A stretch of DNA of 64,000 bases from assembly GCF_025231485.1 (NCBI RefSeq), contig NZ_CP104003.1, forward strand, positions 3,472,001 through 3,536,000, in the 5' to 3' direction. Both the position numbers and the translations under genes were made by a program. The notes beneath the pieces were generated by a model that was given only the letters and a program-made list of their open reading frames with translations, ran no database searches and was not told the origin of the DNA. Positions 57,574-57,826 of this stretch are shown here, one piece after another. The DNA comes from Salinirubellus salinus. GTDB taxonomy: Archaea; Halobacteriota; Halobacteria; Halobacteriales; Haloarculaceae. The first letter of the stretch is position 1, and every line of letters starts with the position of its first letter.

Positions 57574-57654
57574 GCCGGGATGGCCGAGTGGTAAGGCGCA
57601 CGCCTGGAAAGCGTGTTCCCTCTGGGATCGGGGGTTCGAATCCCTCTCCCGGCG
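57574..57654 (+). tRNA. tRNA-Ser (GGA)
   Basis: 81 bases without encoded CCA. Acceptor arm GCCGGGA pairs with TCCCGGC (57647-57653), discriminator G. D-arm GGCCGAGTGGTAAGGC; anticodon stem CACGC/GCGTG around loop CTGGAAA with anticodon GGA at 57606-57608; a long variable arm TTCCCTCTGGGA as in tRNA-Ser; T-arm GGGGGTTCGAATCCC. No intron. Reads serine codons UCC and UCU. Confidence 0.97.
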
Positions 57655-57694
57655 CTCCTGCGGCGAACGACGTGAGCAGCGGAGCGTCCGCCGT

Positions 57695-57789
57695 GAGGGT
57701 TCGAACCAGGGAGGAGCTCGCTCTGACCGTGGTCACGGCGGTAGCCGTGACCCGACGACGGCTTCGCCGTCGGCGTGGTTCGAATCCTC
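57695..57789. repeat. Inverted-repeat element beside tRNA-Ser
   Basis: End arms GAGGGTTCGAACCAG (57695-57709) and GTGGTTCGAATCCTC (57775-57789) match in inverted order at 13 of 15 positions and resemble the tRNA T-arm. Inside are hairpins GGTCACGGC/GCCGTGACC with loop GGTA and CGACGGC/GCCGTCG with loop TTC. The right end continues TCCCGCC, like the tRNA 3' end. It could be a decayed attachment site, a small non-autonomous element or a structured RNA. Confidence 0.65.
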
Positions 57790-57826
57790 TCCCGCCCCAA
57801 CGACGTCGCGCTCACCACTGGAGTGC

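Follow-up and report, generated by a model that had tools for sequence, protein, structure and literature searches.

The 3' flanks of tRNA genes across the haloarchaea carry a family of short, non-coding cassettes whose ends are tRNA sequence, and the element that lies behind tRNA-Ser(GGA) in the stretch of Salinirubellus salinus DNA analysed here (64 000 nucleotides; hereafter the window) is a worn, single cassette of this widespread family, with a composite core. From species to species, cassettes may be present or absent and change in number and order, and their core hairpin (C) modules are common to different tRNA genes. We found no description of such a family in the open-access literature, although an earlier description in subscription papers is possible.

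In the loci that we read, a cassette follows the plan: tRNA 3' end, spacer (S) module, inverted T-loop/T-stem arm (invT), C hairpin, and GGTTCRAATCC joined to a copy of the host tRNA 3' end. The S module has a median length of 44 nt and often contains a hairpin; the inverted arm is the reverse complement of the T-loop and the 3' strand of the T-stem. The C module is a hairpin of 20–98 nt and comes in several types built on one plan: type A (CAGGGAG...CGACCGTG), type B (CCTGCCAGTCGC...GTCTGGCTCCG), type II (CCCGACGAGAC...GTCTCGGCACG) and others. Units are mostly 89–145 bp long, occur up to four in tandem and, where intact, are flanked by a host-specific repeat of ~21 nt; at ~100 bp, they have no room for an integrase gene.

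The features of the window cassette are given in Table 1. The part of tRNA-Ser(GGA) that it repeats runs from GGTTCGAAT to the 3' end of the gene. The initial annotation had described fifteen-base ends that pair at 13 of 15 positions, both with T-arm-like sequence, and two perfect hairpins between them. Consistent with this, the inverted arms (57695–57708 and 57776–57789) are 93% complementary over 14 nt and both contain TTCGAA with GG/CC flanks, and the hairpins are present at 57731–57752 and 57756–57772. Within the C module, these hairpins follow a type-A start (AGGGAG...GACCGTGG, 57708–57732) and are themselves followed by a ...GGCGT end; to judge from comparison with type-A and Haloferax modules, it may be a fusion. 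The likeness to a tRNA 3' end that had been noticed after the right arm also proved real: the arm reads GGTTCGAATCC-TCTCCCGCCCC against GGTTCGAATCCCTCTCCCGGCGC of tRNA-Ser, which makes it a worn copy of that tRNA 3' end that has lost one base and differs at a few others, and its intact equivalent is found in the tRNA-Ser(GGA) cassette of a relative (L169) as well. The S module can be aligned to the tRNA-Ser(GGA) locus of a relative (G029; query 1–140, 86%).

Table 1. Parts of the cassette behind tRNA-Ser(GGA), in window coordinates.
Feature	Position	Strand	Basis
tRNA-Ser(GGA), host gene	57574..57655	+	ARAGORN; Rfam tRNA, 63.3 bits
S (spacer) module; contains GAACGACGTGAG in a trailer hairpin region	57656..57694	+	Siblings: same position, hairpin style
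Inverted arm GAGGGTTCGAACC (T-loop and 3' T-stem strand, reverse-complemented)	57695..57707	+	Inverted-repeat detection, family statistics
C (core hairpin) module, composite	57708..57776	+	Sequence comparison: type-A modules, Haloferax ...GTCGGCGTG modules
Right arm GGTTCGAATCC with worn tRNA-Ser 3' end copy (one deletion)	57777..57798	+	Sequence; intact equivalents in siblings

The window stretch folds better than its shuffles (z −3.5). Nevertheless, its direct repeat is worn, matching at 14/22 positions without gaps, which is inside the shuffle range, and the window copy alone is therefore only suggestive. The element is made secure by its relatives, namely the copies of GGRTTCGAAYCAGGGAG that lie behind tRNAs in this genome and across the order. 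In an Rfam search over the cassette, the tRNA alone reached a gathering score and no curated RNA family beyond tRNA was matched.

The genome has four copies of the left-arm motif, GGRTTCGAAYCAGGGAG, at no more than one mismatch, each on the same strand as a tRNA gene and 40–43 nt after it; the hosts are tRNA-Ser(GGA), tRNA-Leu(TAA), tRNA-Cys(GCA) and tRNA-Leu(CAA). Among 293 genomes of the order, 95 have exact matches, spread across nine of the sampled families, and the reversed control pattern gave 0. The possibility that the same ends would be found away from tRNA genes had been raised at the outset; in fact, 27 of 29 order-wide motif loci lie 30–340 nt behind a same-strand tRNA. One of the two exceptions lies behind displaced tRNA-Lys ends, and the other is apparently coding sequence. 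Chance likeness to a T-arm is ruled out by the reversed-pattern control together with the other-isotype control described below. Motif matches in bacteria were left uncounted as elements because most are within tRNA genes (opposite strand of the T-arm) or at a great distance from tRNAs. On viral contigs, the six matches to the motif were tRNA genes or sequence without a neighbouring tRNA, and two other patterns searched there gave no matches. Phage and plasmid collections yielded no full-length cassette match; only the hairpin part of the core motif matched plasmids, and weakly so. We therefore saw no free carrier of the cassettes.

In S. salinus itself, 10 of 44 tRNAs are followed by a repeat of their own 3' end (identity of at least 16/22), compared with 0 of 44 in the upstream control. 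In one of these, tRNA-Arg(CCT), the repeat is missing its T-loop part; worn cases beyond the ten are tRNA-Cys (15/22) and the tRNA-Ser of the window. Over all loci analysed, 167 units were counted behind 119 of 331 distinct tRNAs, which is no population estimate because many of these loci were chosen by motif and some are bacterial or orthologous; the units are likewise not independent. The own tRNA end is present in 114 of 313 downstream tracts, and the ends of other isotypes in 11, 11 and 15.

The pairing of the ends, the loss of which had been named as evidence against the element, is kept in the family. At a match of at least 9/12, the inverted arm is present in 120 of 155 units, when 4.7 would be expected from shuffles, and a reversed query found 0. 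The arm also tends to follow its own tRNA at variable sites, where it has the minority letter in 25/40 cases at position 57 and in 4/4 at position 59, and at two T-stem positions (23/49 and 49/87). Agreement with the own tRNA is well above that with other isotypes, the levels being inflated somewhat by the choice of arms as best matches to their own tRNA. In two Haloferax species, tRNA-Val(TAC) has the T-loop TTCGACT, a change that recurs in the repeats and in the inverted arm alike. A damaged T-loop is seen in the inverted arm of some Haloferax C modules, which nonetheless recur in several species. Of the three interpretations offered by the initial annotation, a small mobile element that uses tRNA sequence as its ends comes closest, given the position of the motif behind tRNAs and the conserved pairing; generic tRNA mimicry does not describe the ends, as the right one reproduces the 3' end of the very tRNA that hosts it.

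The inverted arm, C module and right arm together have a mean fold z of −4.68, and the arms pair in 135 of 138 units, a figure that is partly the result of selection. Type-A C hairpins of equal length differ in sequence while complementarity is kept (for example, CAGCTTTGCTG, CGCCTCTGGCG and GAGGTCCCCTC). The orientation of type-A C modules relative to the tRNA is fixed at 70:0; inversion of C between the inverted arms was found in 0 of 70 cases, and the arms are therefore unlike a pair of freely inverting sites. A frequent form of the hairpin is C-GA-NN-GNA-N'N'-GA-G, which we take to resemble the stable d(GCGAAGC) mini-hairpin with flanking G.A pairs. Hairpins of the form GA-NN-GNA-N'N'-GA recur in S and C modules, with 27 in 138 S modules compared with ~2 in shuffles, and the hairpin in the window S module is related to them.

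Modules reassort among units. The C module cluster C0 comprises 18 units, which are distributed over eight tRNA species and have 18 different S modules; conversely, at the Haloferax tRNA-Val(TAC) locus, a single S module is paired with five different C modules. This orthologous locus holds one to four units in all 15 Haloferax species, in varying order. Behind Haloferax tRNA-Glu(CTC), one genome (G301) has the empty arrangement tRNA-S-flank, while four others (G314, G319, G168 and G321) have the filled arrangement tRNA-S-invT-C-tRNA end-S-flank. This is a clean presence/absence of a unit, in which gain and loss are both possible. Halorubrum tRNA-Leu(TAA), for which the tRNA and flank matches were often at different places, was left out of the presence/absence comparison. 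At the tRNA-Val(TAC) locus of G321 (L302, G321:C1:1004950–1007800), 2 kb of sequence between copies of the tRNA-Val 3' end contains two ORFs of 322 and 250 aa, neither with a Pfam match, and is a candidate gene-bearing cassette.

Integrase-bearing elements use the same boundary as the cassettes. Just past the right end of the window, an element of ~14.5 kb (C1:3537040–3551577) occupies tRNA-Arg(TCT). It is bounded by the tRNA and a displaced end, GTTCGAATCCCACCGTGCTCGC, and has Phage_integrase matches near both ends, of which one is the nearest such match to the window array, at 8 kb and inside this separate element. The element boundary (GTTCGAAT...) is the boundary of the cassette repeat; an older cassette array lies beyond the displaced tRNA end, and a partial inverted T-loop lies 42 nt upstream of attR. 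On a plasmid contig, an integrase gene (C2:156271) adjoins an exact GGTTCAAATCCCTCCGGGCTCG, the 3' end of tRNA-Arg(CCG), which is likely to be its attP. From these two cases, we conclude that exchange from the T-loop to the 3' end by integrase-bearing elements occurs in this lineage. Archaeal tyrosine recombinases are reported in a review to cleave at the borders of tRNA loops (PMC8371274), and by extrapolation the T-loop would be included among these borders. A possible 17.7-kb element with two integrase-like genes was also seen between tRNA-Arg(CCG) and a displaced cassette (C1:3351431–3369247). When 103 integrase regions, some of them overlapping, were inspected, there were few true T-loop ends and no element end with a C module, and the cassettes are therefore probably not simply remnants of such elements. 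We make no claim that C modules simply represent attP regions from ordinary T-loop elements, as enrichment of inverted arms across the integrase regions was not convincing.

We give roughly even weight to the proposal that the cassettes move by site-specific recombination at the T-loop, mediated by a trans-acting tyrosine recombinase in an integron-like manner; the recombinase, the single-strand step and the action in trans are what we infer. The T-loop of the tRNA would be the fixed docking site, and recombination would take place at TTCRANY, as a 7-bp overlap. In the folded strand invT-C-T, the arms would pair and rebuild a double-stranded T-arm with the C hairpin as its variable tip, and this folded strand would be the cassette site, comparable in action to the attC of integrons. 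A tRNA-targeting tyrosine recombinase would then join docking site and cassette site in trans, with S, or rarely a gene, carried along as payload. In favour of this proposal are the host-specific end copies, the host-matched inverted arm, the narrow unit size, the tandem arrays, the reassortment, the filled and empty sites, the fold with its compensation, the fixed orientation, the boundary shared with integrase-bearing elements and the reported loop-border cleavage (PMC8371274). Against it, no recombinase was tied to the cassettes in this analysis, the inspected T-loop element ends lack C sequence, no free carrier was seen and damaged T-loop arms recur; furthermore, the payloads are almost all non-coding and the independent reassortment of S and C is unlike ordinary cassette insertion.

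The resemblance to integrons lies in a fixed docking site, in tandem short cassettes that are each bounded by a repeat resembling a recombination site, in a cassette site made of inverted repeats, whose folded hairpin has a variable tip and a fixed orientation, and in gain, loss and reordering among species. Unlike in integrons, the docking site is a tRNA gene, the payload is nearly always non-coding, no intI or integrase gene lies beside the window array, the site sequence follows each host tRNA, and spacer and hairpin reassort independently. Xer dif modules (pdif) are also small segments between inverted recombination sites, but they have plasmid-borne dif sites, carry genes and involve no tRNA. 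The fuller reading, which we hold tentatively and as possible rather than probable, is of an undescribed integron-like system, in which a tyrosine recombinase reads the hairpin-rebuilt T-arm and inserts mostly non-coding, occasionally gene-bearing cassettes at the T-loops of many tRNAs, leaving shuffled arrays.

The main rival is recombination at the shared T-arm sequence without a dedicated enzyme, which we consider somewhat unlikely. Unequal crossing-over or template switching would alter the number of units, and ectopic recombination or gene conversion at the shared T-arm would spread C modules. Filled sites indeed lie between long direct repeats, which consist of the tRNA 3' end and S, arms agree with their host tRNA as they would under concerted evolution, and breakpoints fall at T-arm sequence. 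However, exchange between different tRNA genes would be limited to ~11–13 bp, C keeps its single orientation despite the inverted-repeat arms, and compensatory change in the C stems needs a reason.

That each unit is the scar of a tRNA-integrated element or virus whose interior has been deleted seems to us distinctly unlikely. The cassettes share with tRNA-integrated islands and proviruses (tyrosine integrases, T-loop sublocation) a direct repeat from T-loop to 3' end at both ends, an intact tRNA and a displaced fragment downstream, and their boundary is identical to that of the 14.5-kb element of this genome. Gene-bearing stretches between tRNA-end copies also fit such scars: the 2-kb stretch described above, an N-terminal integrase fragment that ends at a cassette arm (L098), and ORFs, toxin–antitoxin-like by eye, between tRNA-Arg and a displaced end (L159). 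Unlike islands and proviruses, the cassettes are ~100 bp long, tandem and devoid of an integrase, with an inverted T-loop arm and modules common to several tRNA species. Random decay is not expected to give the 89–145 bp class, tandem copies or one C module behind eight tRNA species, and the inspected element ends are without C modules. The earlier suggestion of a decayed integration site thus holds for the repeat boundary, which coincides with that of real elements integrated in this genome, but simple decay does not fit units of such uniform size, arranged in tandem and with modules in common.

An RNA-level element is improbable as a full explanation. Here, the trailer hairpin would protect or process the tRNA precursor or yield a stable small RNA; for example, it might sequester the extra 3' half and so prevent its mispairing with the tRNA 5' half. 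The strong folding, the compensatory stems, the fixed orientation relative to the tRNA and the presence of at least one unit at tRNA-Val(TAC) in 15 of 15 Haloferax species would suit such a role. Nevertheless, many tRNAs have no unit, G301 has none at tRNA-Glu where its relatives have one, and an RNA function accounts for maintenance and not for spread among tRNA genes. The initial idea of an RNA whose fold imitates a portion of a tRNA found no direct support, and an RNA role for the hairpin is a possibility to which we give little weight.

Single-strand transposition of the hairpins by enzymes of the IS200/IS605 or RAYT type, in the manner of REP elements or PATEs, would suit hairpin-bearing units that are too short to code, but is scarcely credible because units are confined to tRNA 3' ends and the intact ones are flanked by the host-specific repeat, when haloarchaeal PATEs, which have near-terminal palindromes and are related to IS605-type transposons, make no target duplication, like IS605-type elements themselves (PMC3119063). 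The MITEs, PATEs and SMRs of Haloquadratum walsbyi are likewise short, non-coding, mobile repeats with palindromic ends, but neither a link to tRNA 3' ends nor host-specific tRNA-end repeats are described for them (PMC3119063). REP elements are also intergenic palindromes; the cassettes differ in their confinement to tRNA 3' flanks and in their cassette organization.

tRNA genes are classic docking sites of mobile DNA, and are usually discussed in this role for large, integrase-carrying elements. The cassettes described here are small and non-coding, lie behind a sizeable share of the tRNA genes in an archaeal order, are matched to their tRNAs and show integron-like shuffling. If they are driven by a recombinase, this would be a cassette system anchored on the tRNA itself, testable in the genetically tractable Haloferax, and would offer a route for the capture of genes beside tRNAs. 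If no enzyme is involved, the shared T-arm would link tRNA genes at scattered places into a network of exchange. In both cases, the units can be taken for displaced tRNA ends during the mapping of genomic islands.
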